A DNA stretch of 64,000 nucleotides from Desulfopila aestuarii DSM 18488 (lineage in GTDB: Bacteria; Desulfobacterota; Desulfobulbia; Desulfobulbales; Desulfocapsaceae): contig CAMBBS010000002.1 of NCBI GenBank assembly GCA_945863875.1, forward strand, positions 150,462-214,461, written 5' to 3'. Position 1 is the first letter of the stretch. Each line of letters opens with the position of its first letter. The position numbers were made by a program, and so were the translations under genes. The notes beneath the pieces were generated by a model. It saw nothing but the letters and a program-made list of their open reading frames with translations. It was not told where the DNA came from and ran no database searches. This document shows, piece after piece, positions 15,219-59,101 of this stretch.

Positions 15219-16584
<1,366 letters not shown>

Positions 16585-16612: not shown

Positions 16613-16966
16613 ATGATGATCATGATCAGAGCCATTGTTCGACCGGAAAAAGCAGATGACGTTCTTGCCGCCTTGATGGATGCCGGATTTCCGGCGGTAA
16701 CCAAGTATTCGGTCACCGGTCGCGGCAAACAGCGCGGTATAAAAATCGGCGAGGTGACCTATGACGAGATTCCGAAAACCATGTTGCTCAGCGTCGTCAA
16801 GGCGGAGGACAAGGATTTCGTTATCAGCACCATCATGGATGCGGCCCGCTCCGGCATCAAGGGCGCCTTTGGCGACGGGAAGATTTTCGTCGCCGAGGTT
16901 GAAGACGTCTACACCATCAGTTCCGGCGTGAAAGAGGGTGCCGATACGGCCGAGGTGACCGCATGA
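16613..16966 (+). CDS. nifI1: PII-like nitrogenase regulator NifI1
   Basis: A 117-residue PII-family protein between nifH and nifD, where nifI1 always lies in anaerobe-type nif operons. NifI1 with NifI2 binds the MoFe protein and blocks its docking to NifH when ammonium is available; 2-oxoglutarate and ATP release the block. The sequence shows the PII core (MIRAIVRPEKADDVLAALMD) and the T-loop region VTGRGKQRGIKIGEVTYDEI. The ATG at 16613 follows AAGGAGATA. Its stop overlaps the start of nifI2 (ATGA), so translation is probably coupled. Confidence 0.93.
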   Translation: MMIMIRAIVRPEKADDVLAALMDAGFPAVTKYSVTGRGKQRGIKIGEVTYDEIPKTMLLSVVKAEDKDFVISTIMDAARSGIKGAFGDGKIFVAEVEDVYTISSGVKEGADTAEVTA

Positions 16967-17337
16967 AAGAAATTGTTGCCGTCGTACGCATGAACATGAT
17001 GAACAAGACCAAGGCGGCCCTCACCGCCGCCGGCGTCAACGCTTTTTTTGCCCATGAAGCCCAGGGACGAGGCGTTGGTTTTATCAACCGAAAATTGGTC
17101 AAAGGTGCCGAACAGGGCTATGAAGAAGCCGCCGCTCTGCTCGGGGAAAAGGGCAACCTCTACCCAAAACGAATGGTCACCATCGTCGTCGACGATGATG
17201 ACGTCGACGATGTTATCGAGGCACTTATCACCACCAACCAGACCGGCAAACCCGGTGACGGTAAAATATTCGTCCTCCCCGTGGCCGACGGCGTCAGGGT
17301 GAGAACAGGCGAGAAAGGTACAAAATCAATAACATAG
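16963..17337 (+). CDS. nifI2: PII-like nitrogenase regulator NifI2
   Basis: A 124-residue partner of NifI1. It starts with MKEIVAVVRMNMMNKTKAAL and has the NifI2-type T-loop AQGRGVGFINRKLVKGAEQGY with an extended loop (LLGEKGNLYPKRMVTIVVDD). The end (TGKPGDGKIFVLPVADGVRVRTGE) is the PII C-terminal signature. It overlaps nifI1 by 4 bp and is followed by nifD. Presence of the pair indicates ammonium switch-off at the protein level. Confidence 0.93.
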   Translation: MKEIVAVVRMNMMNKTKAALTAAGVNAFFAHEAQGRGVGFINRKLVKGAEQGYEEAAALLGEKGNLYPKRMVTIVVDDDDVDDVIEALITTNQTGKPGDGKIFVLPVADGVRVRTGEKGTKSIT

Positions 17338-17355
17338 ATTGTGAGGAAACACGTC

Positions 17356-18993
17356 ATGGGAAAAGCACATAAACTGGTGCAGTGGGATCCCCACAACATC
17401 AAGGAAAAACTTCTGGAAAAATATCCGCCGAAGGTCGCCCGAAAACGCGCCAAGCAGATAATGATCAACGAGGCGCTGGAAAACACCACGCCGGAAATTG
17501 TCGCCAACGTGCGCACCATCCCCGGCATCATCACCATGCGCGGCTGCACCTATGCCGGATGCAAGGGGGTTATCATGGGACCGGCCAGCGATATCGTCAA
17601 TCTCGTCCACGGGCCGATCGGCTGCAGTTTTTACGCCTGGCTGACCCGTCGCAACCAGACCGACGGTATCAACGACACGGATGCGAACTTTATCAACTAC
17701 TGCATGTCCACCGACATGCAGGATTCGGATATCATCTTCGGCGGAGAAAAAAAACTCGAAGCAGCTATCCAGGAGGCCTACGAGCTGTTTCACCCGAAGG
17801 CGATCGCCGTCTTTGCCACCTGTCCGGTCGGCTTGATCGGCGACGATATCCACGCCGTGGCAAAAAAAATGCGCGAAAAGTTCGGTGACTGCAACGTCTT
17901 TGCCTTCAGCTGCGAAGGCTACAAAGGTGTGTCGCAATCCGCCGGGCACCATATCGCCAACAACCAGGTATTCACCCACGTCGTCGGCAGGAGCGAAACC
18001 GAGAAAACGGAAAAGTTTAAAATCAACCTGCTTGGCGAATACAACATCGGCGGGGACGGCTTTGAGATCGACCGCATCTTCCAGAAATGCGGCATCACCA
18101 ATATCTCAACCTTTTCCGGCAATGCGACCTATGACAAATTTGCCTCGGCCAACCAGGCGGACCTGAGCTGCGTCATGTGCCACCGGTCGATCAACTATGT
18201 GGCCGACATGCTCGAGACCAAATACGGTATACCGTGGATCAAGGTCAATTTTATCGGCGCGGAGGCGACGGCAAAATCGCTCAGGAAAATTGCCCAGTAC
18301 TTCGGCGACCAGGAACTGACCGACCGGGTTGAAGCAGTCATAGATGAAGAAATGCCTGCGGTGGCCTCGGCCCTGCAAGAGGTATTGCCAAGGACCCAGG
18401 GTAAAACGGCAATGATTTTTGTCGGCGGTTCCCGGGCGCATCATTACCAGGAACTGTTTAACGAACTGGGCATGAAGACCATTTCAGCAGGCTATGAGTT
18501 CGGCCATCGTGACGACTACGAAGGCAGGGAGGTCATTCCTACCCTGAAGGTCGACGCCGACAGCAGGAACATAGAGGAAATAAAAGTCGAAGCGGATCCT
18601 TTCTTGTACAAGCCGAGAAAAACGCCGGAAGAACTGGTGGCGCTTGAAGAGGCCGGCCTTGAATTCAAGGCCTACACCGGGTTGAACCCGGATATGGCAT
18701 TGAACACGCTGGTCGTCGATGACCTGAACCAGTATGAGGCGGAAAAACTGGTGCAACTGATGAAGCCGGACCTGTTCTGTGCGGGCATCAAGGAAAAATA
18801 TTCCATCCAGAAGCTCGGCGTGCCGATGAAACAGCTGCACAGCTACGATTCAGGCGGACCGTATGCCGGCTTCAAGGGTGCGGTCAATTTCTATCAAGAG
18901 ATCGACCGGTTGGTCAACAGCAAAATCTGGAGCTATATGAAGGCGCCCTGGCAGGAAAAACCGGAACTTTCCGCGACCTACGTCTGGGAGTAA
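17356..18993 (+). CDS. nifD: Nitrogenase MoFe protein alpha chain NifD
   Basis: A 545-residue alpha chain. P-cluster ligands are visible at Cys64 (MRGCTYAGCKG), Cys90 (HGPIGCSFYAW) and Cys156 (VFATCPVGLIGDD). FeMo-cofactor ligands fall at Cys275 (CVMCHRSINY) and His495 (MKQLHSYDSGGPYAG). An extra segment of about 50-60 residues (around 390-450) marks the clostridial type. The start at 17356 follows a GAGGAAAC ribosome site; the in-frame GTG at 17341 is part of that region. No vnfG or anfG gene lies between nifD and nifK, so this is the molybdenum enzyme. Confidence 0.97.
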   Translation: MGKAHKLVQWDPHNIKEKLLEKYPPKVARKRAKQIMINEALENTTPEIVANVRTIPGIITMRGCTYAGCKGVIMGPASDIVNLVHGPIGCSFYAWLTRRNQTDGINDTDANFINYCMSTDMQDSDIIFGGEKKLEAAIQEAYELFHPKAIAVFATCPVGLIGDDIHAVAKKMREKFGDCNVFAFSCEGYKGVSQSAGHHIANNQVFTHVVGRSETEKTEKFKINLLGEYNIGGDGFEIDRIFQKCGITNISTFSGNATYDKFASANQADLSCVMCHRSINYVADMLETKYGIPWIKVNFIGAEATAKSLRKIAQYFGDQELTDRVEAVIDEEMPAVASALQEVLPRTQGKTAMIFVGGSRAHHYQELFNELGMKTISAGYEFGHRDDYEGREVIPTLKVDADSRNIEEIKVEADPFLYKPRKTPEELVALEEAGLEFKAYTGLNPDMALNTLVVDDLNQYEAEKLVQLMKPDLFCAGIKEKYSIQKLGVPMKQLHSYDSGGPYAGFKGAVNFYQEIDRLVNSKIWSYMKAPWQEKPELSATYVWE

Positions 18994-19061: not shown

Positions 19062-20435
19062 ATGTTACTACGACATACACCTCAAGAAATAACAGAGCGT
19101 AAAGCCCTGATGATAAACCCGGCCAAGACCTGTCAGCCGATCGGTGCCATGTACGCCGCCCTGGGAATAAAAGGATGTCTGCCGCACAGTCATGGTTCCC
19201 AGGGTTGCTGCGCCTATCATCGCAGCACCCTGACCAGGCACTACAAGGAACCGATTTCCGCAGCCACCAGTTCCTTTACCGAGGGTGCGTCGGTCTTCGG
19301 CGGGGCGGCTAATCTGATACAGGCAATCGATAATATCTTCACGGTCTACCAGCCGGAGGTTATCGCCGTGCATACCACCTGCCTGTCGGAAACAATCGGC
19401 GACGACCTGCCGCAGATTTTCGACAAGGCCAAAAAAGACAAAAAAGTCCCGGCGGGCAAGACTGTTCTCGGCGCCCCGACGCCAAGCTATGTCGGTTCCC
19501 ATGTCACCGGTTTTTCCAACATGGTCAAGGCGATGGCGGCTCTGGCCGAGCCCTCGACGAAGAAAAACGGCAAGATCAACGTCATTCCCGGCTGGGTAGA
19601 GCCCTCGGACATGGAAGAGATCAAGAGGCTTGCCGCCATGGTTGGCGCCAGAATCAACATGTTCCCGGACACCTCGGGGGTGCTCAATGGACCTTTGACC
19701 GGCGAATACAAGATGTTCCCCGACAGCGGCGCCTCCATCGACGACATTAAAAACAGCGGCAGCAGTATCGGGACCCTCGCCCTCGGCGAATGGTGTTCCG
19801 CCGATGCAGCCAGACTGCTCGATACTAAATGCAAGGTGCCCTGCTCTATCCTCGATATGCCCTTTGGGCTGCAGGCCACCGATCGATTCATCGATGCCCT
19901 GAGAACTGTGGCCGGCACCTCGGTACCCGATGAGATCGCCGCGGAAAGAGGCACCCTGGTGGATTTGATTTCCGATATGCACCAGTATTTCTACGGCAAG
20001 AAGGTTGCGCTGGTCGGAGATCCCGATCAGGTGATTGCCATGACCGAATTCCTCGTGGCCATCGATATGCGTCCCGTGCATATCATCACCGGAACGCCGG
20101 GTAAAAAATTCGAGTCCCGGATAAAAGAGATCACCAAGGACATGGGCCGTGCGGTCAATGTCAAGGCCAAGGGCGACATGTTCCTGCTGCACCAGTGGAT
20201 AAAAAATGAGCCGGTTGAGCTGCTTATCGGCAACACCTACTGCAAGTACATCGCCCGGGATGAAGACCTGCCTTTTGTTCGCTGGGGTTTCCCCATTCTT
20301 GACCGCCAGGGGCATCAGCACTTTCCGACGGTCGGCTACAAAGGGGGACTGCGCCTGCTGGAGAAGATCCTCGGCGTATTACTTGATCGTAAAGATCGAG
20401 ACGACCCTGAAGAAAAGTTTGAACTGGTCCTGTAA
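19062..20435 (+). CDS. nifK: Nitrogenase MoFe protein beta chain NifK
   Basis: A 457-residue beta chain, lacking the N-terminal extension of about 50 residues found in Azotobacter NifK, as is usual for the clostridial type. P-cluster cysteines are visible at Cys24 (AKTCQPIGAMYAALG), Cys49 (HGSQGCCAYHR) and Cys107 (HTTCLSETIGDD). The DMPFGLQATDRFIDAL and GFPILDRQGHQHFP blocks are typical. It lies 68 bp after nifD behind GGGAAGGGAAG. A short inverted repeat follows the stop codon. Confidence 0.97.
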   Translation: MLLRHTPQEITERKALMINPAKTCQPIGAMYAALGIKGCLPHSHGSQGCCAYHRSTLTRHYKEPISAATSSFTEGASVFGGAANLIQAIDNIFTVYQPEVIAVHTTCLSETIGDDLPQIFDKAKKDKKVPAGKTVLGAPTPSYVGSHVTGFSNMVKAMAALAEPSTKKNGKINVIPGWVEPSDMEEIKRLAAMVGARINMFPDTSGVLNGPLTGEYKMFPDSGASIDDIKNSGSSIGTLALGEWCSADAARLLDTKCKVPCSILDMPFGLQATDRFIDALRTVAGTSVPDEIAAERGTLVDLISDMHQYFYGKKVALVGDPDQVIAMTEFLVAIDMRPVHIITGTPGKKFESRIKEITKDMGRAVNVKAKGDMFLLHQWIKNEPVELLIGNTYCKYIARDEDLPFVRWGFPILDRQGHQHFPTVGYKGGLRLLEKILGVLLDRKDRDDPEEKFELVL

Positions 20436-20494: not shown

Positions 20495-21679
20495 ATGAAG
20501 TTTTTGGTGAAAAAGATGACTGAGCTCTCCAGTACACACCGTCACGATTGCCGTTGTTGGCAGAAAACAGACAAAACGGCCGGAGTTATCCACCTGCCCA
20601 TTGCGCCCCAGATTGTCGCCCGAACACGGTTTTCGCCGCCGCCCCCTGTGCGCAATTCAAGCATCATGGTTCCCGAGGCAATGGACTACTTAGCCCAGGC
20701 AATGCAAGGGAAGCCGGACGTCACCATGGTGGCCATAACCGGCCCCGGCGATCCGCTGGCAACACCAGGGATCACCATAAGTGCGGTGGAGCAGATTCGA
20801 ACACGTTATCCGGGACTGAAGATCGGCCTGAAGACGCTCGGCATGGGCGGCGACAAATTAGCAGGCGCTCTCGCCCAGGCCGGCGTCGATTATGTTGAAA
20901 TGCAGGTGGATGGCGTTCGTGCCGAGATTCTTGAAAAAATCTATGCCTGGATCAGGCCGGGTCTGAAGACTCTGAAGATATCCGAAGCCGTGAAACTGCT
21001 CCTCAAGGAACAGCAAAACGCGATTCCGGCACTCAAATTTCATAATGTCGATGTGTCCATCCTGACGACGCTCTACCCCGGATGCAACATCGACCATGTG
21101 ACGAAAATCGCAGTTGAAATGATGGAACTCGGCAGCAGGAGCATCTCGCTTCTGCCCTACAAACCCGAACCGGGCGCAGAAGTTGATCTGGACAGCCCAG
21201 ACGCGAAGATCCTCCAGGAAGCCGCGGAAAAAGTGCGCAGATATCTGCCCATAGTCGAGCCGACGCTGCTGCAGCCGACTGGCCATTCCGGCGGCGAAGC
21301 AATTTCCGAGCAGCCGTATCAGGCCAAGCCGAGTAAACAGCGGCCGAATGTGGCGGTCGTCAGCTCCAACGGCATCGAAATCGACCTGCATCTCGGCCAG
21401 GCCAGCCGTTTTCTGATTTACGGCCCCCGGGCAGACGGTCTGCCCTGTCTTCTCAGCACCAGAGATGCCCCGGAACCGGGCACAGGAAAAAACCGCTGGC
21501 AGGACGTGGCCGCTCTCCTGGCCGACTGCTTTACCCTTCTTGCCGTCAGTGCCGGGGAAGGTCCTCGGCGCATTCTCGGCGAAACAGGCCTCAAGGTGCA
21601 CCTTGCCGAGGACAACATCGAAGGGCTTGTCGATGTGCTGTACGGCGGCGGTAAAAAATGTAAAAAAAATAAAAAATAA
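20495..21679 (+). CDS. NifB-NifX-like fusion lacking all radical-SAM cysteines (probable pseudoenzyme)
   Basis: A 394-residue protein that follows NifB along its length. HRHDC and GVIHLPIAPQ match NifB SHPC and GRVHLPVAPK; ITGPGDPLAT matches IAGPGDPFAN; EKIYAWIRPG matches QKIYAWVKDG. The block NifB uses for its clusters is replaced: where the true NifB of this window has CNIKCNFCDRKYDC, this protein has IVARTRFSPPPPVRN. The later HCTRC is LLQPTGH. Only the first Cys (in HDC) remains. Residues about 283-385 form a NifX-like cofactor-binding domain, and the tail is lysine-rich. The frame is intact, so it is probably a cofactor carrier or scaffold rather than an enzyme. The start may instead be the ATG at 20516. 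Confidence 0.78.
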   Translation: MKFLVKKMTELSSTHRHDCRCWQKTDKTAGVIHLPIAPQIVARTRFSPPPPVRNSSIMVPEAMDYLAQAMQGKPDVTMVAITGPGDPLATPGITISAVEQIRTRYPGLKIGLKTLGMGGDKLAGALAQAGVDYVEMQVDGVRAEILEKIYAWIRPGLKTLKISEAVKLLLKEQQNAIPALKFHNVDVSILTTLYPGCNIDHVTKIAVEMMELGSRSISLLPYKPEPGAEVDLDSPDAKILQEAAEKVRRYLPIVEPTLLQPTGHSGGEAISEQPYQAKPSKQRPNVAVVSSNGIEIDLHLGQASRFLIYGPRADGLPCLLSTRDAPEPGTGKNRWQDVAALLADCFTLLAVSAGEGPRRILGETGLKVHLAEDNIEGLVDVLYGGGKKCKKNKK

Positions 21680-21745: not shown

Positions 21746-22048
21746 ATGGCCTTACCTGCGAGGCAGATTCTTCTCTGCCAGAGTTTTCGATCAAAAGGCG
21801 ACCCCAAGGGGATCTGCCACAAACAGACCGACGGTTTTCTGCAGTATATCGAGGAGGAAATTCTCGATCGCGGTCTGGATATGCAGATTGTCGCCACCGG
21901 CTGTCTGAAACAGTGTGAATCCGGGCCAATCATGGTCATCCAGCCGGACAATCTCTGGTTCAAAAACATTGACAGCGAGGAGGCGATTGATGCGGTGCTC
22001 GATGGGCTGGAAGACGGCGAGCCGCCAAGCGACTATCTCCTCGCATAG
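21746..22048 (+). CDS. Thioredoxin-like [2Fe-2S] ferredoxin
   Basis: A 100-residue ferredoxin with the cluster ligands Cys11, Cys24, Cys53 and Cys57 in the C-x12-C ... C-x3-C pattern of thioredoxin-fold [2Fe-2S] ferredoxins (LLCQSF ... GICHKQTDGF ... ATGCLKQCESGP). The Clostridium pasteurianum and Azotobacter members of this family are known to associate with nitrogenase MoFe protein. It lies in the nif transcript 66 bp after the NifB-like gene, so it may deliver electrons to nitrogenase or its assembly. The physiological partner here is inferred from position. Confidence 0.9.
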   Translation: MALPARQILLCQSFRSKGDPKGICHKQTDGFLQYIEEEILDRGLDMQIVATGCLKQCESGPIMVIQPDNLWFKNIDSEEAIDAVLDGLEDGEPPSDYLLA

Positions 22049-22054
22049 GGCACA

Positions 22055-22525
22055 ATGGACATATCGCCGATAATCCGCCCGGCCGAACAGTCGGATGTCG
22101 ACGGCATGGTGTTGCTGCTGCAGCAACTTTTCGCCCTTGAAAAAGACTTTGCTTTTGATGCAGATCGACAAAAAAAAGGGCTGAATCTGCTGCTTGAGGC
22201 GGCAAACGGCGTGATCATGGTCGCCTGGGCAAAGCAGGGGGTGATCGGCATGGGCAGTGGTCAGCTGGTTATTTCCACCGCCGAGGGCGGGCCGTCGCTG
22301 TTCGTTGAAGATGTCGTGGTACAGCCATCACGGCACAGCCACGGAATCGGCACCAGGCTGCTGCAGACACTTGGCGACTGGGGGGCGGCAAGAGGGGCAA
22401 GACGCATGCAGCTGCTGGCCGATCGGAACAACGCTTTTGCCCTCGAATTTTACCATCGCCGCGGCTGGCAGCAAACGCAACTCATCTGTCTGCGAAAATT
22501 TCACCGTGAAAGGGACCAAACATGA
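22055..22525 (+). CDS. GNAT-family N-acetyltransferase in the nif operon
   Basis: A 156-residue GNAT protein. The acetyl-CoA binding motif A reads VEDVVVQPSRHSHGIGTRLLQTL, with the R/Q-x-x-G-x-G/A form as RHSHGIG. The C-terminal ALEFYHRRGW is motif B. It starts 6 bp after the ferredoxin stop and overlaps the next gene by 4 bp, so it is clearly part of the nif transcript. The target is unknown. A role in modifying a nif protein or a small molecule is only a guess from context. Confidence 0.85.
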   Translation: MDISPIIRPAEQSDVDGMVLLLQQLFALEKDFAFDADRQKKGLNLLLEAANGVIMVAWAKQGVIGMGSGQLVISTAEGGPSLFVEDVVVQPSRHSHGIGTRLLQTLGDWGAARGARRMQLLADRNNAFALEFYHRRGWQQTQLICLRKFHRERDQT

Positions 22526-22941
22526 ACATTGTACAGATTGACAACTGGCGCGACTATCGGCGGGACGGCGAGCAGTTTCTGCACACCGCCACGGCGGCAC
22601 ACCAGAAAAAACGCAAGGCCTTCTCGACGGACACCCTCTACAATGTCACCTGTATGGCCATCGAAAAGCTGATCATGGCCTTTTTGATGAAAAACGGTGA
22701 TCTTGCCGAAAACCATACCATGGCCGATCTGCTCAGGGCGCTGCAGCTCCATCTCGGCGATATTCCTGATCTCACCGAAAAGCTTCTGTATATGGACACC
22801 TTTCAGGAGATATGCTCGCTGGATAATTTTACCATCCATACGCCAAGCGAGGATGATGTCGCTAAAATGCTCGCCATCGGTGAGGATGTCCGGGCGCTTT
22901 TGCACCCCCATCTCTATGACCAGCGTAGTTCTCTACATTAA
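22522..22941 (+). CDS. HEPN-like small helical protein in the nif operon
   Basis: A 139-residue, mostly helical protein overlapping the GNAT gene by 4 bp. The stretch YNVTCMAIEKLIMAFLMKNG followed by ENHTMADLLRAL resembles HEPN domains, which often pair a helix of this kind with a conserved H-(D/T)-L region. An R-x4-H string (RALQLH) is present, but whether it sits at the nuclease position is not clear, so RNase activity should not be assumed. No nucleotidyltransferase partner is adjacent. The function in nitrogen fixation is unknown. Confidence 0.6.
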   Translation: MNIVQIDNWRDYRRDGEQFLHTATAAHQKKRKAFSTDTLYNVTCMAIEKLIMAFLMKNGDLAENHTMADLLRALQLHLGDIPDLTEKLLYMDTFQEICSLDNFTIHTPSEDDVAKMLAIGEDVRALLHPHLYDQRSSLH

Positions 22942-42472: not shown

Positions 42473-45400
42473 TCATTTGCCTGCCGCCGATATGTTCACC
42501 TCTACCCAGTGTTCTTTATGGTCATCCACCAAGGGGATGATCGTATCGTTGAGCTCCTTGCCATTTACCTTTACCTGTCTTGCGCTGTTGCCGGAGACCC
42601 CTTGCCGGACGTTGATATGATAGATAGTCTCCCGGAAGCGATAGTGCATGGTGAAGCCCGGCCAATCGGCCGGCAGGCACGGACTGAAATGCAGCCTGTC
42701 GACGTCGAGCCGCAAACCCAACAGCGATTCGACGATGAGCCGATACATCCATGCCGCCGATCCGGTGTACCAGGTCCAGCCGCCGCGTCCGGTATGCGGG
42801 GCTACCGCATAAACATCGGCGGCAACGACGTAGGGTTCGACCTTGTAGACGGCAGTCTCGGCCGGCGTTCGGCCATGATGTATCGGGTTGATCATGGTGA
42901 AAATCTCCCAGGCCCGCCGGTTGTCGCCCTGGCGCGCAAAGGCCATGGCCGTCCAGATTGCCGCATGAGTGTATTGCCCGCCGTTTTCGCGCACACCGGG
43001 AACGTAGCCTTTGATATAGCCGGGATTAAGCGCCGACGTGTCAAACGGCGGATCGAGAAGCTGAACAAGGTCATGCTCACGGCGGACGAGGTGCTTGTCG
43101 ACTGCCTCCATGGCCTGGCGGGAGCGCCCTTCATTTCCCGCGCCGGACAGCACGGACCAGCTCTGGGCGATGGAATCGATGCGGCATTCGGAGTTCTCCA
43201 TTGAACCGAGCGGCGTCCCGTCGTCGAAATAGGCTCGGCGATACCACTCGCCGTCCCAGCCATGCTCCTCGATATTGCGCTGCAGTTTTTCGGCCTCTGC
43301 ATGGCAGCGTTCGACCATGGCTATGTCATTGCGCAGGTCCGCAACTTCAGCAAAGCGCATGAGGACCTCGTAAAGAAAAAATCCCAACCAGACGCTTTCG
43401 CCTCTGCCGTGTTCGCCGACCAGATTCATCCCGTCATTCCAGTCGCAGGAGCCGATCAGCGGCAGGCCATGCCCGCCAAACCGGAGGCTGTTGAGAATGG
43501 CCCGGACACAGTGGTCATAGAGACAGGCCGTCTCATCGGTGCGGATCGGCAAATCGTAATACGAGTCTTCATCGGCGTTTACTTCCCGTCCCCGGAGGAA
43601 GTGGATCTGCTCATCGAGCACGCCGCTGTCGCCGGTGGTAAGAACATAGCGGCAGGCGGTCAGCACCAGCCAGAGGTAATCGTCGGAACAATGGGTACGT
43701 ACGCCTCGACCGATCGGCGGATGCCACCAGTGCTGCACGTCTCCTTCCTCGAATTGCCGGGATGCCGCAAGCAGCAGATGCTCCCGCACCAGGTTCGGCC
43801 GGGTGTAGAGCAGGGCCATCACGTCCTGCAGCTGATCGCGGAAGCCAAAGGCACCGCCCGACTGGTACGTTGCGCAGCGCGCCCAAAGCCGACAGGCGAG
43901 AGTCTGATAGAGGAGCCAGCCGTTGGCCAGAACATTGAGGGATTGATCCGGTGTCTCGACATGGACTGCGCCGAGGGTATGGGCCCAGTGCTGCCAGACC
44001 GTGTCGAGGGCGACGCGGGCGGCGGCTCCGCCGTGGAATCGATTGATCAGTTTTTCGGCTTCATCCCGGTCTTGTCCAACACCGAGCCTGAAGACGATCT
44101 CCCGCTCCTGCCCGGCAGCAAGGTCGAAACTTACCTGGATGGCGGCGCATGGATCAAAGGCAGCCCCGACCCTCCCGGACAGGCGGATCCGGCCCATCGC
44201 GGCAGGTGTCGCCAGGGTTCCGTTACGGCCTAAAAATTCGGTCCGGTCGCCGGTTATGCTGCGATTCCGGTCATCCACATCAAAGAACGCCGTGCGGTTG
44301 GGGAACTCGGTATTGTAGGGGTTGACGGCGAGGAGTGCGCCGCTTTTCGGCTCAATGGCGGTAACAACATGCATGGTCGATTTTCGCCGCAGGTCTCCAA
44401 GCACCCATTCGACATAGCCGGTGGCCGAAAGTTTCCGGGACCGGTCCGATTCGTTGCGCACTTTCAGTACCGCAAATTTAATTGGTGCATCGAGAGCCAC
44501 GTACAACCACAGCTCGGAGCGGATGCCGCGTTCCGTACATTCAAAGACGGTATAGCCGAAGCCATGCCGGGTGACGTAGGGCGAAGCGCCGCGGCAGGGT
44601 GAAGGTGTTGGCGACCAGAAGTGACCCCGCTCTTCATCGCGAAGGTAAAAGGCCTCACCGCTGACGTCGCTGACCGGATCGTTGGCCCAGGGGGTCAGTC
44701 GGAATTCATGGGCATTCTCGTTCCAGGTGCAGACCGGACCGCTTTCACCGATTATCGTACCGAAAGAAGGATTGGCCAGCACGTTTACCCACGGCGCCGG
44801 GGTTCGGTCACCAGCAGTGGTGGTGATGACATATTCGCGACCATCCGGAGTAAAGCCGCCAAGGCCGTTAAAAAACAGTAAATCGTGGCGCGGCTGGGAC
44901 GCTGCCGCCTCTGGTTCGCGACGGAGGGTCCGGGTGGGGATGAGCGTGGGGACATGTATCCCCTGCAGGCTGCGCCCGCCGATCTGCTCGGCAAGCGTCC
45001 CTTTACTGTCGGTGAGAATAACCCGGGCAACAGCCTGAAACAGGATGCGATCCTCCTCAGCTATCTGATCGGCGAGGCGCACGAAGATGCCGCCGTGTCG
45101 TTCGGTGATACTGGCTTCTATTCCGGCGATATGATCGACGATCTGGTCGTGGAGAAGCTGCCGGTATCCGGCATGATCTTCGTTCCAGATCACCAGATCC
45201 ACCGCCAGGCCTTTCAACCGCCAATAGGCGTGGGCCTGAACCAGTTGCCGCACCAGATCGATATTGGCCGGATCGGCAATCTGCAGCAGGACAATCGGCA
45301 GATCACCGGAAATGGCATAGCCCCACAGACCGGATTGACCGCGGTTGTTCTTTTTGAGAGTGTCCGTATCGGCACGCAACGCGCCGTTGGCATAGAGGAC

Positions 45401-48400
45401 CGCTCCGGCCAGGCGGCCATAGAGATGGGCGTCAGCGTCGGTAGCGTTGATCTGGCGCAGCAGTACCTGGCCATGGGTCCAGGCCAGGTCGAAAGCTCGA
45501 TCGGCGAGATAGCGATCCTGATATTTCTCCACGAGACTCATTGCTTCATCACGGCTGGCGCCGATACCGGTAACCATCATTATCGTCACCGATTCGCCCG
45601 GCTTAACGAAAAACCGCGAGCGGATGGCGACTATCGGATCAAGCACCGAACCCTGACTGCCGGAAAGGCTGTTATCGCTGCCGGCATCCCCGCCCAGGGC
45701 TTGCGGGTTGGCACTGCTGTTGCCGCGGCCGATGAACTGGAGGCGGTCGGTTTCATAGGAAATCTCCTCGACATCTGTCCCGTGAATGGCCATCAGATGC
45801 AGCATCCAGGGCGCCTGTTCACCTCGCGACCGAGGCCTGCGGGTGCAGAGGATGGCCCGCTGTTCCGGGATTATTTCCGTCTGGACGAAGAGATTGCTGA
45901 AAGCCGGGTGCAGCGCGTCGGCTATGGACGTTGCCAGAACCACCTCGGCATAACTGGTTACATCGATCTCTCTTGTCCGGCGAGTGCGGTTGGTAACCTT
46001 TACCCGCCGCAGCTCGACATCGTCGTCGGACGACACGACAATCTCGGTATAGGCGTCCAGCTCGTCGTAACGACTGCGAAACTCGGCCCGTCCCTCTGAG
46101 AACACCGCCTCAAAATTTGTGCCCCGCTTCAAAGTCGGTTGGTGAGTCGTCGACCAGAATCTGCCGCTGTTTACATCACGGATATAACAGAAAGTGCCCC
46201 AGTTGTCACAGGTACTGTCCTCGCGCCAGCGGGTGATGTCAAGGTCTTGCCAGCGGCTGTAGCCGCCGCCGACAGCAGTGATCATTACGTGATATCTGCT
46301 GTTTGACAGGAGATGGGCCTCCGGATACGGCGAGTCGGGACTCTTGAAAACCCGGAGCGGTGCCTCCTGCCCGCCGCCAGCCATTTGATGCCCGGCCAGC
46401 TCCGAGGTGTGGGCATAAAAAGTCGTTGCCTTGGGGATTTTCTCCTGCAGCAGCAAGAGCGTCGCCTGGAACAGCGGTTCCGACTCGAATCTTTGCTGCA
46501 TCGGCCGACCAAGAAGCAAAGAAGCCAGAGAGAGAAAGCTCATGCCCTGGTGGTGGGCCATGAACGACCGCACGATCACCTTGGTCTGGCCGGGCGGCAG
46601 ACGGGAGGCGGTGTAATCGATGGCTTCATAGAAACCGTATTTTCCGGCAAAGCCTTCTGCAGTCAGGCGTTCAAGATTGAGACAGGCCTTTTCGGGAGCC
46701 ACCATCAGCGCCATCACCGAGGCATAGGGAGCGATGACCAGATCTTCGGCGAGCCCGCGCTTCAGTCCCAGCCCGGGAACGCCAAAGGCGCGGTATTGAT
46801 AGTTATGATGCACATCGATGGCATTATAGCCGCATTCAGAAATGCCCCAGGGTACCCCGCGTTTTTTACCGTATTCGATCTGGCTGGCCACCGCCGCCTT
46901 GCAGGTCTGGTGAAGCAGAGTGTTTTCGTAAGTCGGCATGACGAGCAGCGGCATTAAATATTCGAACATCGAACCGCTCCACGACAGAAGAATCGATTCG
47001 CCTCCCGTGGTCGTCAGCAGACGCCCGAGGGCAAACCAGCTTTCCTGCGGCAGTTGTCCCTGGGCAATGGCCACGAAACCGGCAAGCCGCGCTTCCGAAG
47101 CCAGGAGATCGTAACAGCTGGGATCCCGGCGATGTTCGCCGACATTGTACCCGATGGTCAGCAGACGCTGCGAGGGATCGTAAAGAAAGCCGTATTCCAT
47201 CTGGGCGAGCCGGTTTATGCGCAGGGCCAGATTTATGATGGTCGCCATGCGGGTTGCGGCCGGCCTGCTCCCGGCCGGGAAATTGCGTTCCAATTCCACC
47301 ACCTGGCGGAGGCTTGGCATCCTGTCACCGTCTCCACATGCGCCGGGTTCATCTGAAGAGGACAAACACTCCATCCACGGCGCGAGCAGGGTCAGCTCAT
47401 CCAGGGCGTCGCGGCACTGATCGGCAAAGGCCTGGGCCCACCACCGCACCTGACTGCCGGGGTCGGTATCAATTGCTACCGCTTCCGCGACCAGCAGGGC
47501 CGCAGAGCTTGTCAGCCGCAGCAGACACAACCGCAGCTCGATCAGGCTGGCCGGCGGGACGGCTGCTGCCTGATCGAGCTGCCTGTGCAATTCATTCCGC
47601 AGGCCGGCCAGGGTGCTCCCGCCCACGTCACGCAAAACCGCCAGGGTATCACTCAGGGCGGCAAACAATCGGCTGCCGGCAATCGGCAGATCGACAAGTC
47701 TTCGCAGACCAGAGGCTAAAGTGAGAAGATGGCCTGCCAGATTGCCGCTGTCAACCGACGAAATATAAAGAGGGTGCAGCGGCGTCAGGGATTGGGTGTC
47801 GTACCAGTTATAAAAGTGGCCGCGATGCCGTTCAAGGGATTCCATGGAGTGCAGAGTGTTTTCCGTTCGTTCCATGAGTTTTCCGGCGGAGATATAACCG
47901 AAATCGTAGGCTGATAAATTGGCCAGCAGGGCAAGCCCCATGTTGGTCGGCGAAGTCCGGTGGGCGATGACGCCGACCGGATGTTCCTGGAAATTATCCG
48001 GCGGCAGCCAATGGTCCTCCCTGCTGACGAAGGTCTCGAAGAAGGCCCAGGTTCTTCGGGACAGTCGGCGGAGAAAAAGCGTCTGCCCGGCGGTCAACTT
48101 TTCGGTACGGCGGGCAAGCGGCCTGCTCATCCACCAGGTGATCAGCGGCGAACAAAACCATCCAACCAGAATCGGCACGGCAACGGTAAGGGCAGCCGGT
48201 TGCAGCAGGGCGATGGCTCCTGCCGTAACGGTGGCAAAAACCGGGGCGCTGCACATCGACCGGCAGGAACCAAGAAGGCCCGGGCGTTCGGCGCTGCCCA
48301 CGTCACCCGACGGGTTCCACTGAAGCAGCCGCCGGTGTGAGATATGCATTCGCCAGAGCGTGCGCAACACACCATCCAGACTATAAAAAGCTTCATGGGG

Positions 48401-55079: not shown

Positions 55080-56441
55080 ATGGGCACAGCACCTCTTTTA
55101 CAGGACAGATCGAAACAAATTCACCGCAAGGGATCCGCCCCTTTTGAAATCGACTGCAACAAGGACAGCCTGGCCGGCGCAGTCAGCCAGCGTGCCTGTG
55201 TTTTCTGCGGTTCGCGGGTGGTACTCTACCCCATCGCCGACGCGCTCCACCTGGTCCATGGCCCGATCGGCTGTGCCGTTTACACCTGGGATATTCGCGG
55301 GGCGCTGTCATCCGGACCCGAGCTGCACCGGCTCTCTTTTTCCACCGACCTGCAGGAACTCGATGTCGTCTTCGGCGGCGAGAAAAAACTCGCCAAAGCC
55401 CTCGATGAGCTTATCGACCTGCATAAACCGAAAGCCGCCTTTGTCTATTCGACCTGCATCGTCGGGTTGATCGGCGACGATCTGGAGGCGGTGTGTAAGA
55501 AGGCCACCGAGGAAAAAGGCATCCCGGTGCTGCCGGTCCAGTCGGAAGGCTTCAAGAAGGGCAACAAACGTGCCGGCTACGAAGCAGCCTGTACCGCCAT
55601 GGCCCGCTTGGTCGGCATGGGTGATATCGGCAACATCTCCAGACACTCCATCAATATCCTCGGGGATTTCAACCTTGCCGGGGAAATATGGCTGATCCGC
55701 GAATATTTCCAGCGGATCGGTGTTGAGGTAGTGGCGAATATTACCGGCGACGGCCGGGTTGCCGACATTCAACGCTGCCACGGGGCGGCATTGAATGTCG
55801 TGCAGTGTTCCGGGGCGACCATGGATCTCGCCAACATGCTGCAGGATGGCTACGGCATCCCCTCTCTTCGCGTCTCTTATTTCGGCGTCGAAGACATGGC
55901 CGAAGCGCTCTACGCTGTCGCCCGTCATTTCGGCGAACCGGAGATGCTGGAAAAGGCCCGTCAGCTGGTAAAAGAAGAACTCGCCACGCTGTTGCCCGAA
56001 TTGGCCAGATACAAAGCAGCCCTGACCGGCAAGAAGGCGGCGATCTATGTCGGCGGGGCCTTCAAGGCCTTTTCGCTGGTCAAGGCCTTTCGGCTGATCG
56101 GCATGGACGTGGTCATGGTCGGCTCCCAGACCGGCACCAAAGAGGACTACATCGAACTTGAAGAAATAACCGACGAAGGGTGCATCATCGTCGATGACAG
56201 CAACCCCCTCGAACTTTCGTCTTTTTTGAAAGAAAAGGACGTCGATCTTTTTGTCGGCGGCGTCAAGGAACGGCCTATTGCCTATAAACTCGGCGTGGCC
56301 TTCTGTGACCACAATCACGAACGTAAAGAGATGCTCGCCGGTTTCCAGGGCATGCTCAATTTTGCCCGCGAGGTGTACGGCTCGGTTATGAGTCCCGTCT
56401 GGAAATTTGTCCCCCGCAGAAACAAGGAGGTGTCGTCATGA
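55080..56441 (+). CDS. nifE: FeMo-cofactor scaffold protein NifE
   Basis: A 453-residue NifD-like protein. NifEN is the scaffold on which the NifB product becomes FeMo-cofactor. Conserved blocks are RACVFCGSRVVLYPIADALH, LVHGPIGCAVYTWDIRGALS, YSTCIVGLIGDDLEAVCKKA and QSEGFKGNKRAGYEAAC-like residues. The C-terminal half contains HNHERKEMLAGFQGMLNFA, in place of the FeMo-co His region of NifD. It follows the sigma-54 promoter behind AGGAAAGG and overlaps nifN by 4 bp. Confidence 0.95.
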   Translation: MGTAPLLQDRSKQIHRKGSAPFEIDCNKDSLAGAVSQRACVFCGSRVVLYPIADALHLVHGPIGCAVYTWDIRGALSSGPELHRLSFSTDLQELDVVFGGEKKLAKALDELIDLHKPKAAFVYSTCIVGLIGDDLEAVCKKATEEKGIPVLPVQSEGFKKGNKRAGYEAACTAMARLVGMGDIGNISRHSINILGDFNLAGEIWLIREYFQRIGVEVVANITGDGRVADIQRCHGAALNVVQCSGATMDLANMLQDGYGIPSLRVSYFGVEDMAEALYAVARHFGEPEMLEKARQLVKEELATLLPELARYKAALTGKKAAIYVGGAFKAFSLVKAFRLIGMDVVMVGSQTGTKEDYIELEEITDEGCIIVDDSNPLELSSFLKEKDVDLFVGGVKERPIAYKLGVAFCDHNHERKEMLAGFQGMLNFAREVYGSVMSPVWKFVPRRNKEVSS

Positions 56442-57790
56442 CCAAGATGCCAAGTTATACCGCCACCACCAACGCCTGCAAACTCTGTAAACCCCTCGGG
56501 GCATCGCTGGCCTTCCGGGGCATCGAGAGCTGCGTCCCCTTTCTGCACGGCTCCCAGGGCTGCGCCACCTATATGCGCCGCTATATCATCAGCCATTACA
56601 ACGAGCCTATCGATATCGCCTCGTCCTCATTGGGCGAGAAACAGGCGATTTACGGCGGAGGCGCGAATCTGAAACTGGGCCTGAAAAATGTCACCACCAA
56701 ATACGCCCCCAAAGTCATCGGCGTGGCAACAACCTGTCTGACGGAAACCATCGGCGACAATGTGCCGATGATCCTCGCCGAATATGACAAAGAATTCGGC
56801 ACCGCCGACTCTCCTCTTATCGTCCATGTCTCGACGCCAAGTTTCTCGGGCACGCACATGGAAGGCTTCAACGCGGCGGTGAAGGCGGTAGTCGAACAGC
56901 TGGCGACCGAAGCGGAGCCGAACGAAACTATCAATCTCCTCAGTGGTTTTATCTCGACCGCTGATATCAGATATCTCCGGGAAGTGTGCAACGACTTCAG
57001 CATCGATGCGACCATTCTTCCCGATTATTCGGATACCCTCGATGGTCAAGCGCTTAACGATTATCCGCTTATCCCTGAAGGCGGCACACCGCTTAAAGCC
57101 ATCGCCCATATGGGTGGTGCGAAAGCCACCATCGAACTCGGCGCAACCCTGCCGGCGGAAACCGGCGGCAAAGTGCTGGAACGAAAATTCGGCACCAGGC
57201 TGCTGCGCACCGGACTGCCGATCGGCATACGGGCAACCGACGCCCTTTTTGACCTGCTCGCCGAACTGAGCGGGCAGCAGGTTCCGGAACGACATACCGC
57301 CGCCCGGGGCCGCTTGATCGACAGTATGGTCGACGGTCATAAGTATATTTTTGGTAAGCGGGCGGTTGTCTACGGTGAAGAGGACCTGGTCGTCGGCATG
57401 ACCTCCTTTCTCGCAGAAATCGGCATACATACCGTACTCTGCGCCTCGGGCGGCAAAAGCCGCAGGTTTGCCTCTGCCGTCGCGGCGGCCCTTGAGGGGT
57501 TGGATGGCGAACTTCCGGTGGTCAAGGAGGATGTCGATTTCTTCGATATCGAAACCATGGCCAAGGAACTGCAGGTCGACCTGGTCGTCGGCCATTCAAA
57601 GGGATACGCCTTTGCCAGAAAGGAAAATTTGCCCCTGATCCGCGTGGGGTTTCCCATCCATGACCGTGTCGGCGGACAGCGGATCCTGCACCTCGGCTAC
57701 CACGGTGCCCAGACCTTGTTCGACCTCATAACCAATACGGTCATCGACAAGAAGCAAAGTGACTCGTCGGTCGGCTACAGCTACATGTAA
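56438..57790 (+). CDS. nifN: FeMo-cofactor scaffold protein NifN
   Basis: A 450-residue NifK-like protein, the partner of NifE. It starts with TATTNACKLCKPLGASLAFR and has HGSQGCATYMRRYIISHYNE and VATTCLTETIGDNVPMIL, the expected cysteine regions. It ends in HDRVGGQRILHLGYHGAQTL, like the NifK end. It is not fused to NifB, unlike in some Clostridium and Desulfovibrio clusters. It overlaps nifE by 4 bp and precedes nifB by 33 bp. Confidence 0.95.
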   Translation: MTKMPSYTATTNACKLCKPLGASLAFRGIESCVPFLHGSQGCATYMRRYIISHYNEPIDIASSSLGEKQAIYGGGANLKLGLKNVTTKYAPKVIGVATTCLTETIGDNVPMILAEYDKEFGTADSPLIVHVSTPSFSGTHMEGFNAAVKAVVEQLATEAEPNETINLLSGFISTADIRYLREVCNDFSIDATILPDYSDTLDGQALNDYPLIPEGGTPLKAIAHMGGAKATIELGATLPAETGGKVLERKFGTRLLRTGLPIGIRATDALFDLLAELSGQQVPERHTAARGRLIDSMVDGHKYIFGKRAVVYGEEDLVVGMTSFLAEIGIHTVLCASGGKSRRFASAVAAALEGLDGELPVVKEDVDFFDIETMAKELQVDLVVGHSKGYAFARKENLPLIRVGFPIHDRVGGQRILHLGYHGAQTLFDLITNTVIDKKQSDSSVGYSYM

Positions 57791-57823: not shown

Positions 57824-59101
57824 ATGAAAAATTCGGAGAAAAAAGATTTCCGCAGCCACCCGTGTTTTAATGCTGATGCCAAAGGTAAATTCGGCAGGGT
57901 CCATCTGCCCGTCGCACCCAAATGCAATATCAAATGCAACTTCTGCGACCGCAAGTATGACTGCGTCAACGAGTCGCGCCCCGGTGTCACCAGCACCATC
58001 CTCTCACCGGAGCAGGCGGGTGTGTATATGCAGCGGGTACTGGAGAAAGAGCCGCGAATAAGCGTTGCCGGTATCGCCGGGCCGGGCGACCCCTTTGCCA
58101 ATGGCCTGGAAACCATCGCCACCATGCGCACGATCAGGAAAAATCATCCGCAGACCCTGCTGTGCGTCTCCTCCAACGGCCTGGCTATCGGTCCCTACAT
58201 CGAGGCCCTGGCAGAAATTGAAGTCTCCCATGTGACCATAACCGTCTGTGCTGTCGATCCGACGATCGGCCAAAAAATTTACGCCTGGGTAAAAGACGGT
58301 AATGTCATCTATCACCGCCTACAGGCGGCCGAACTGCTGCTCTCCCGTCAGCTCGCCGCGATCAGGAAACTGAAAGCCCATGACATCACCGTCAAAGTCA
58401 ACTGCATTGTCATCCCCGGCATCAACGATCACCATGTCGAGGATGTCGCCCGGACCATGAAGGAACTTGGTGTCGATCTGCTGAACTGCATGGCCATGTT
58501 TCCCAACGCCAACACACCCTTTGGCGATATTGCTCAACCGGATACGCAGATGATGGAACAGCTGCGGGCCAAAGCGGAAGAATATCTACCGCAGATGCGT
58601 CACTGCACCCGGTGCCGGGCCGATGCGGTGGGTTTACTCGATGAGGATCGCACCGAGGAATTCAGAAGCTGCCTGTCAGCCTGTTCGTCCCTCAAACCCA
58701 TGCCGGCTGAGATGCGCCCCTATGTCGCCGTCGCCACCGAAGAAGGCATCCTCATCAACCAGCATCTTGGCGAAGCCCGCAGCTTCGAGATCTGGGAACA
58801 GGTCGACGGCTCGTTTCGTAAAGTCGAGGACCGTTCAGGCCCGGCGGTTGGAGGCGGCATAAAACGCTGGCATCAGCTGGCGAAAATTCTTGGTGACTGC
58901 CGCGCCGTACTGGTCAGCGGCGTCGGCCCGACGCCCTTTGATATTCTCACCAAGTCCGGGGTAAAACCCGTGGCGGCAGCCGGCTTTATCGAGGAAGGAT
59001 TGCGCACCGTCTATGAAAACAAGAAGGCCGCATCCCTGAAAGGCAGGCGAAGCCCCTGTGCCGACGGCAGCTGCAGTGGATCGGGCGGAGGATGCGGTTG
59101 A
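57824..59101 (+). CDS. nifB: FeMo-cofactor biosynthesis protein NifB with C-terminal NifX domain
   Basis: A 425-residue radical-SAM enzyme that makes the [8Fe-9S-C] NifB-co from two [4Fe-4S] clusters. The radical-SAM cluster ligands are Cys34, Cys38 and Cys41 (CNIKCNFC). Further cluster cysteines include Cys14 in SHPCFNADAKG, Cys47, and Cys261/Cys264 in HCTRCRADAVG. The NifX-like cofactor-binding domain covers about 298-400 (VAVATEEGILINQHLGEARS). A Cys/Gly/Ser-rich tail ends the protein. All catalytic features are present, in contrast to the degenerate relative at 20495. Confidence 0.96.
   Translation: MKNSEKKDFRSHPCFNADAKGKFGRVHLPVAPKCNIKCNFCDRKYDCVNESRPGVTSTILSPEQAGVYMQRVLEKEPRISVAGIAGPGDPFANGLETIATMRTIRKNHPQTLLCVSSNGLAIGPYIEALAEIEVSHVTITVCAVDPTIGQKIYAWVKDGNVIYHRLQAAELLLSRQLAAIRKLKAHDITVKVNCIVIPGINDHHVEDVARTMKELGVDLLNCMAMFPNANTPFGDIAQPDTQMMEQLRAKAEEYLPQMRHCTRCRADAVGLLDEDRTEEFRSCLSACSSLKPMPAEMRPYVAVATEEGILINQHLGEARSFEIWEQVDGSFRKVEDRSGPAVGGGIKRWHQLAKILGDCRAVLVSGVGPTPFDILTKSGVKPVAAAGFIEEGLRTVYENKKAASLKGRRSPCADGSCSGSGGGCG

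Follow-up and report, generated by a model that had tools for sequence, protein, structure and literature searches.

A NifB-like protein without the radical-SAM cysteines, encoded behind nifK in Desulfobacterota, as a candidate nitrogenase cofactor chaperone

The stretch of 64,000 nucleotides from Desulfopila aestuarii DSM 18488 that was analysed here (contig CAMBBS010000002.1, positions 150,462 to 214,461; the whole stretch is called the window) encodes, directly downstream of nifK, a two-domain protein that resembles the NifB–NifX fusions and has lost the radical S-adenosylmethionine (SAM) cluster motif of NifB. We use the working name PB, for pseudo-NifB. The features that concern PB and the complete NifB of the same window are the following.

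19062..20435, + strand: nifK, directly upstream of PB (open reading frame, conserved gene order, annotated nifK at the matching slot of locus L188)
20495..21679, + strand: pseudo-NifB gene (PB), open frame from the ATG at 20495, likely translated from the ATG at 20516
20585..21262, + strand: NifB-like barrel domain, approximately residues 31-256, without the radical-SAM cluster motif
20612..20650, + strand: residues 40-52, IVARTRFSPPPPV, which in the alignment stand where NifB has its CX3CX2C radical-SAM segment; the gating loop after the segment is deleted
21347..21658, + strand: NifX/NafY-like domain, approximately residues 285-388
21389..21391, + strand: codon of H299, aligned with NifX H35 and NafY H121
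57824..59101, + strand: complete NifB–NifX fusion, the catalytic paralogue (TIGR01290, 375.9 bits, above the cut-off of 343.65; all named cluster ligands present)

A sequence-only reading of this DNA had described an intact NifB–NifX-type frame beside nifK and a full, cysteine-complete NifB at 57824, and both descriptions held. The PB frame comprises 394 codons without any interruption, and its product is 30% identical to the window NifB over 379 aligned columns (E 6e-47). The frame is indeed open from 20495, which had been taken as its start, but translation more likely begins at ATG 20516 (M8) and would then yield 387 amino acids, because a methionine stands in this column in 84 of the 89 full-length orthologues among the matches listed (31 of the 120 listed homologues, being shorter than 380 amino acids, were dropped); 16 of 26 alignment rows begin at this column. 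The best NCBIfam model for PB is nifB (TIGR01290; 91.4 bits, E 5.1e-26), below its curated cut-off, and the nifX model TIGR02663 was not among the matches at E values up to 0.1. The Pfam family PF02579 (Nitro_FeMo-Co/NifX) scores above its gathering cut-off of 26.3, and Radical SAM (PF04055) reaches 24.6 bits, below its gathering cut-off of 29.5; the [4Fe-4S] motif is absent as well. Structure prediction gave a NifB-like alpha/beta barrel for the N-terminal half, and an all-helical N-terminal domain of the NafY type was not found in the model. The NifX half was modelled separately, as the fold matches of the whole model hardly reached it.

The excerpted text of the review PMC9692996 lists as NifB ligands three radical-SAM cysteines and a cysteine and a glutamate of the gating loop; the K1 ligands are an N-terminal cysteine, a histidine and a cysteine of strand 3, and K2 is bound by a C-terminal cysteine pair. 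In the PB of the window, QIVARTRFSPPPP takes the place of NifB's CNIKCNFC segment, the loop that carries C47 and E50 (window NifB numbering) is deleted, C114 has become a glycine, and the CTRC pair is lost; the replaced segment and the missing pair, both noticed before, are thus seen directly in the alignment with the window NifB. Ligand counts come from 103 PB and 58 NifB aligned together. All three radical-SAM cysteines are present in 58/58 NifB, whereas 90/103 PB have none and 13/103 retain the third alone. The CX3CX2C motif occurs in 27/27 NifB versus 0/96 distinct PB, and also in 0/103 PB of the larger alignment, so that the search for orthologues with restored cysteines gave no sign of a local error. 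The loop cysteine and glutamate are missing in all 103 PB, and the C-terminal pair is never complete, with one of its two cysteines left in 7/103. The proline-rich character that had been ascribed to the replaced segment applies to the window and its near relatives (ARTRFSPP in 9/96 distinct locus sequences) but is not general; the family instead has a basic residue at positions 43 (98/103) and 45 (93/103), and a phenylalanine at 46 (91/103).

The absence of auxiliary-cluster cysteines, as claimed by the sequence-only reading, holds for C114, the CTRC pair and the loop cysteine, but C19 and H33 of PB align with the K1-ligating N-terminal cysteine and histidine of NifB, an alignment that is uncertain because the N-terminal stretch is poorly modelled (predicted local distance difference test, pLDDT, below 50 for residues 1-26). 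When an N-terminal cysteine is scored at up to 30 residues ahead of the histidine column, all three K1-type ligands are found in 9/103 PB (Desulfovibrionaceae, Desulfarculaceae-like genomes and the Desulfobulbaceae bin L058), cysteine and histidine in a further 12/103 with the window protein among them, the cysteine only in 56/103, and no K1-type ligand in 26/103. The earliest-branching PB (L121, L124 and L187) keep cysteine and histidine and have a threonine at the third K1 site. Loss of the enzyme site seems to have preceded that of the K1 site, which then proceeded separately in individual lineages.

PB is under purifying selection. The ratio of nonsynonymous to synonymous substitution rates (dN/dS) is 0.11-0.26 in 18 disjoint PB pairs, with no value near 1, and 0.08-0.25 in 8 NifB pairs; no in-frame stop lies ahead of the match end in any of the 112 PB frames, duplicates included. 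A single TAG that was flagged within the match of genome G032 in the scan of relatives was not met before the match end in the frame check. In a tree of 129 rows (from 161, thinned at 80% identity and by a length limit), a single branch parts 82 PB from 47 NifB (support 100). In a barrel-only tree of 102 rows, for which PB was thinned at 55% and the long-branched L039, L117, L042 and L034 were left out, 43 PB form one clade (support 100, stem 1.42) that nests inside the two-domain NifB of Desulfobacterota (support 98) and, given its long stem, pairs only tentatively with L165 (support 84). This tree was rooted with 12 single-domain NifB, an impure group that includes four plasmid NifB of other phyla, and both trees are quick searches with support from the Shimodaira–Hasegawa-like approximate likelihood ratio test only. 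As PB forms one clade within two-domain NifB, a single duplication of a NifB–NifX fusion is its most likely origin. An origin of its N-terminal half outside NifB is ruled out by the fold and the rooted tree, which agrees with the earlier assignment of this half to NifB.

The constraint on the two halves has shifted relative to NifB. In 14 of the 18 PB pairs, the NifX domain has a lower dN/dS than the barrel, and among 30 loci that hold both genes, mean pairwise identity in PB is 0.386 for the barrel and 0.600 for the NifX domain, as compared to 0.645 and 0.566 in NifB. Of the two halves, the barrel is less conserved in 15/15 disjoint PB pairs (one a near-tie, 0.89 and 0.89) versus 3/15 NifB pairs, and the histidine equivalent to H299 is invariant in 103/103 PB. 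In PB, it is now the carrier half that is held more tightly, and the enzyme half has become looser.

The protein search returned 918 relatives at E ≤ 0.001, NifB included, of which the best 120 are listed. A match was found in 36 of 57 related genomes, with PB in 33 and NifB only in 3 (G039, G044, G045); a second, nearly full-length NifB-like match is present in 32/33 PB genomes, and in the remaining one there is a piece at a contig end. In named genomes, 115 relatives were detected, and 80 of these loci were kept; they come from Desulfopila, Desulforhopalus, Desulfogranum, Desulfobulbus, the cable bacteria Electronema and Electrothrix, Desulfamplus, Pseudodesulfovibrio, Humidesulfovibrio and Desulfarculaceae, and from records with less precise names. 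Among 297 sampled genomes of the phylum, the window's own included, a PB-type match occurs in 10 (E 8.8e-95 or better; the next genome 1.6e-73), and 8/8 of these PB genomes that were fetched with context show nifH, nifI1, nifI2, nifD, nifK, PB and the ferredoxin gene in order. PB is found across Desulfobacterota with the same losses, beyond chance.

In the window, the order is nifH, nifI1, nifI2, nifD, nifK, PB, ferredoxin, GNAT, HEPN, and the other genes of the nif region are the following.

15754..16584, + strand: nifH (open reading frame, conserved order, nifH annotated at the matching L188 slot)
16613..16966, + strand: nifI1-type PII gene, start approximate (open reading frame, order, PII annotation at the matching L188 slot)
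16963..17337, + strand: nifI2-type PII gene (open reading frame, order, PII annotation at the matching L188 slot)
17341..18993, + strand: nifD (open reading frame, order, annotated nifD at the matching L188 slot)
21746..22048, + strand: 2Fe-2S ferredoxin-like gene, the next gene after PB (match to NF041612 at E 3.7e-13, under the cut-off)
22055..22525, + strand: GNAT-type acetyltransferase gene (PF00583), linked to the operon
22522..22941, + strand: small HEPN-like gene (PF05168, E 0.00059, below cut-off), linked to the operon
55080..56441, + strand: nifE (TIGR01283, above cut-off)
56438..57790, + strand: nifN, of NifN/NifK type (TIGR01285, below cut-off; position after nifE)

PB begins 59 bases after nifK and ends 66 bases before the ferredoxin-like gene. 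A promoter scan of the gap between nifK and PB found no promoter and no terminator-like site on the + strand, which weakly favours a single transcript for the two genes. The 112 PB frames reduce to 96 distinct ones for the locus counts: nifK lies on the same strand no more than 400 bases upstream in 89/96 distinct loci, and the ferredoxin gene no more than 600 bases downstream in 92/96, so that the orthologues do stand at the same position. A GNAT gene is near PB in 85/104 loci, a few doubled or shortened, and a HEPN-like gene in 77/104. Among the seven loci without a close nifK, L056 and L119 begin at a contig end, and L074, L089, L107, L110 and L111 differ: here the PB–ferredoxin–GNAT–HEPN block stays together, with nifK 5 kb upstream (L107) or elsewhere in the genome. 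All five genomes of these odd loci have nifK, one of them as pieces only. In Nitratidesulfovibrio vulgaris, the operon has an empty PB slot, with 190 bases from nifK to the ferredoxin gene.

The interpretation of PB as a pseudoenzyme kept as a cofactor carrier or for docking to NifDK, as put forward by the sequence-only reading, is supported. In the specific form that we propose, for which we consider the chances to be about even, PB would be a chaperone akin to NafY and NifY that holds the nitrogenase cofactor via its NifX half and docks to cofactor-free NifDK via its pseudo-NifB half. PB is read in this way because it combines a domain of the cofactor-binding type with a second domain and is encoded behind nifK. 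The slot behind nifK is occupied by nifY in some well-studied nif operons. PB would be unable to cleave SAM, would bind the NifB product NifB-co or the iron-molybdenum cofactor (FeMo-co) through H299, would dock on apo-NifDK with the pseudo-NifB half as adaptor, and would be released after cofactor insertion, as reported for NafY and NifY. It shares with these proteins a NifX-type domain with the cofactor histidine, and with NafY, as far as the excerpts of PMC8496260 describe it, the combination of a cofactor-binding core with a second domain.

Several points weigh against this proposal. According to the same excerpts, NafY is known to bind NifDK through an all-helical half, whereas the putative docking half of PB is a NifB-derived barrel, so that docking is not backed by homology (PMC8496260). 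The step from PB to NifDK we infer from the place of the gene only, and this place is not strict, as four loci of cable bacteria (Electronema/Electrothrix) and one of Desulfobulbaceae are off nifK. The lower conservation of the barrel disfavours a tight interface, and any role of PB would be dispensable in general, because the same operon in N. vulgaris and 3/36 relatives with NifB go without it. Furthermore, a small NifX-like match beside NifB coexists with PB in 4/33 PB genomes (G036, G037, G048, G050), which slightly weakens the case for such a chaperone; the fetched loci show such a match in 2/38, as the fetched stretches fall short of the matches in three of those four genomes. PB as a mere stand-in for a missing NifX is a weak idea in view of this coexistence.

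The main rival, to which we assign a minor chance, is a NifX-like carrier that would take NifB-co from catalytic NifB to NifEN, with the NifB-shaped half placed beside NifB or replacing it on NifEN. Since PB sits behind nifK and not next to nifEN-nifB in 89/96 loci, and since catalytic NifB already has its own NifX domain, the NifDK side is preferred; the four genomes with a separate NifX-like match likewise indicate that PB is no simple NifX substitute, and it differs from NifX by the pseudo-NifB half in front. A regulatory pseudoenzyme that pairs with active NifB, and tunes or stabilises it, would fit the shared fold and two-domain layout as well as the second NifB-like match in the PB genomes, near full length in all except the one with a contig-end piece. 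However, the constraint lies on the NifX domain and not on the barrel that would be expected to pair, and 36 kb separate the two genes in the window; we regard such a partner as quite improbable.

We give equally little weight to the view that the former K1 site of PB still binds one iron-sulfur cluster, with PB acting as a cluster scaffold or donor. The nine PB with all three K1-type ligands and the 12 with cysteine and histidine, which include the window protein and the earliest-branching L121, L124 and L187, speak for it; yet the histidine is missing in 82/103 PB and the C114 equivalent in 94/103, and the ligand pattern varies inside the family while the protein stays. That PB is a decaying nifB duplicate deserves next to no credit: its sole point is the loss of the catalytic residues, and it is opposed by 112 frames free of in-frame stops, the dN/dS values, the one deep clade and the nearly fixed place, in agreement with the earlier argument from the intact frame. 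Local sequencing error or decay is ruled out by the orthologues, the rates and the absence of stops.

A further variant of the proposed NifDK chaperone, which we think rather unlikely, is that the emptied NifB active site has become an anion-binding cradle, so that both halves would grip NifB-co or FeMo-co and deliver it to NifDK. Basic residues at 43, 45, 154 and 158, which are conserved in PB, would then occupy or surround the site that the cluster ligands have vacated. Segment 36-58 carries a net charge of 2.19 in PB versus 2.09 in NifB, taken as equal, the whole barrel is more acidic in PB (-4.0 versus +1.1), and the loops on the catalytic side are hardly more conserved than the far side (2.54 versus 2.37 bits). 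The barrel may add a cofactor cradle, but neither charge nor conservation clearly favours this. If it were true, a radical-SAM enzyme that builds the cofactor would have turned into the holder of its own product, a pseudoenzyme as metallocofactor chaperone.

The nearest sequence relative of PB is the NifB–NifX fusion, with which it shares domain order and barrel fold, and the trees fit such a descent; PB differs from it by the absent radical-SAM motif, gating loop and CTRC pair, by its own long-stemmed clade, and by constraint on the other domain. It can be seen as a natural experiment in which both domains are retained, the enzyme half being disabled and the carrier half more constrained. PB is present in cable bacteria and in all but three of the 36 relatives that gave a match, and its source names hide it; among the matches listed, some PB are called 'NifB/NifX family molybdenum-iron cluster-binding protein', which is a name only. 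In the open-access literature, as covered by titles and the beginnings of abstracts, no study of a NifB paralogue lacking the cysteines was apparent. Arragain et al. (2017), in the excerpts of PMC5715403, excluded 28% of NifB sequences as 'faulty annotated'; all of these carry a NifX domain, most lack CX3CX2C, and the authors regarded them as NifX. PB may belong to this group, and differs from this description in that it is not NifX alone, as a full NifB-like barrel is present. PB may also matter when gene sets are chosen for moving nitrogenase to new hosts.

The nif region of the window carries an insertion or rearrangement between the HEPN gene and nifE, because approximately 32 kb of other genes separate the two (22942-55079), whereas nifE follows the HEPN gene after approximately 1 to 4 kb in several relatives (e.g., L045-L047). 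Inside this stretch lies an open frame of 2887 amino acids on the - strand (42473-51136). Outside the nif region, three small PF02579 proteins (open frames of 124-139 amino acids) are clustered at G000:C8:117885-121829. An extra NifB/PB-like copy with two in-frame stops is present at G225:C1:1479402-1480352, in a genome that also holds PB and NifB, and this copy is apparently decaying. In one genus of family f54 (G130, G163, G218 and G243), NifB-type matches lie within open frames of 928-963 amino acids, which are possibly fusions of NifB to another protein.
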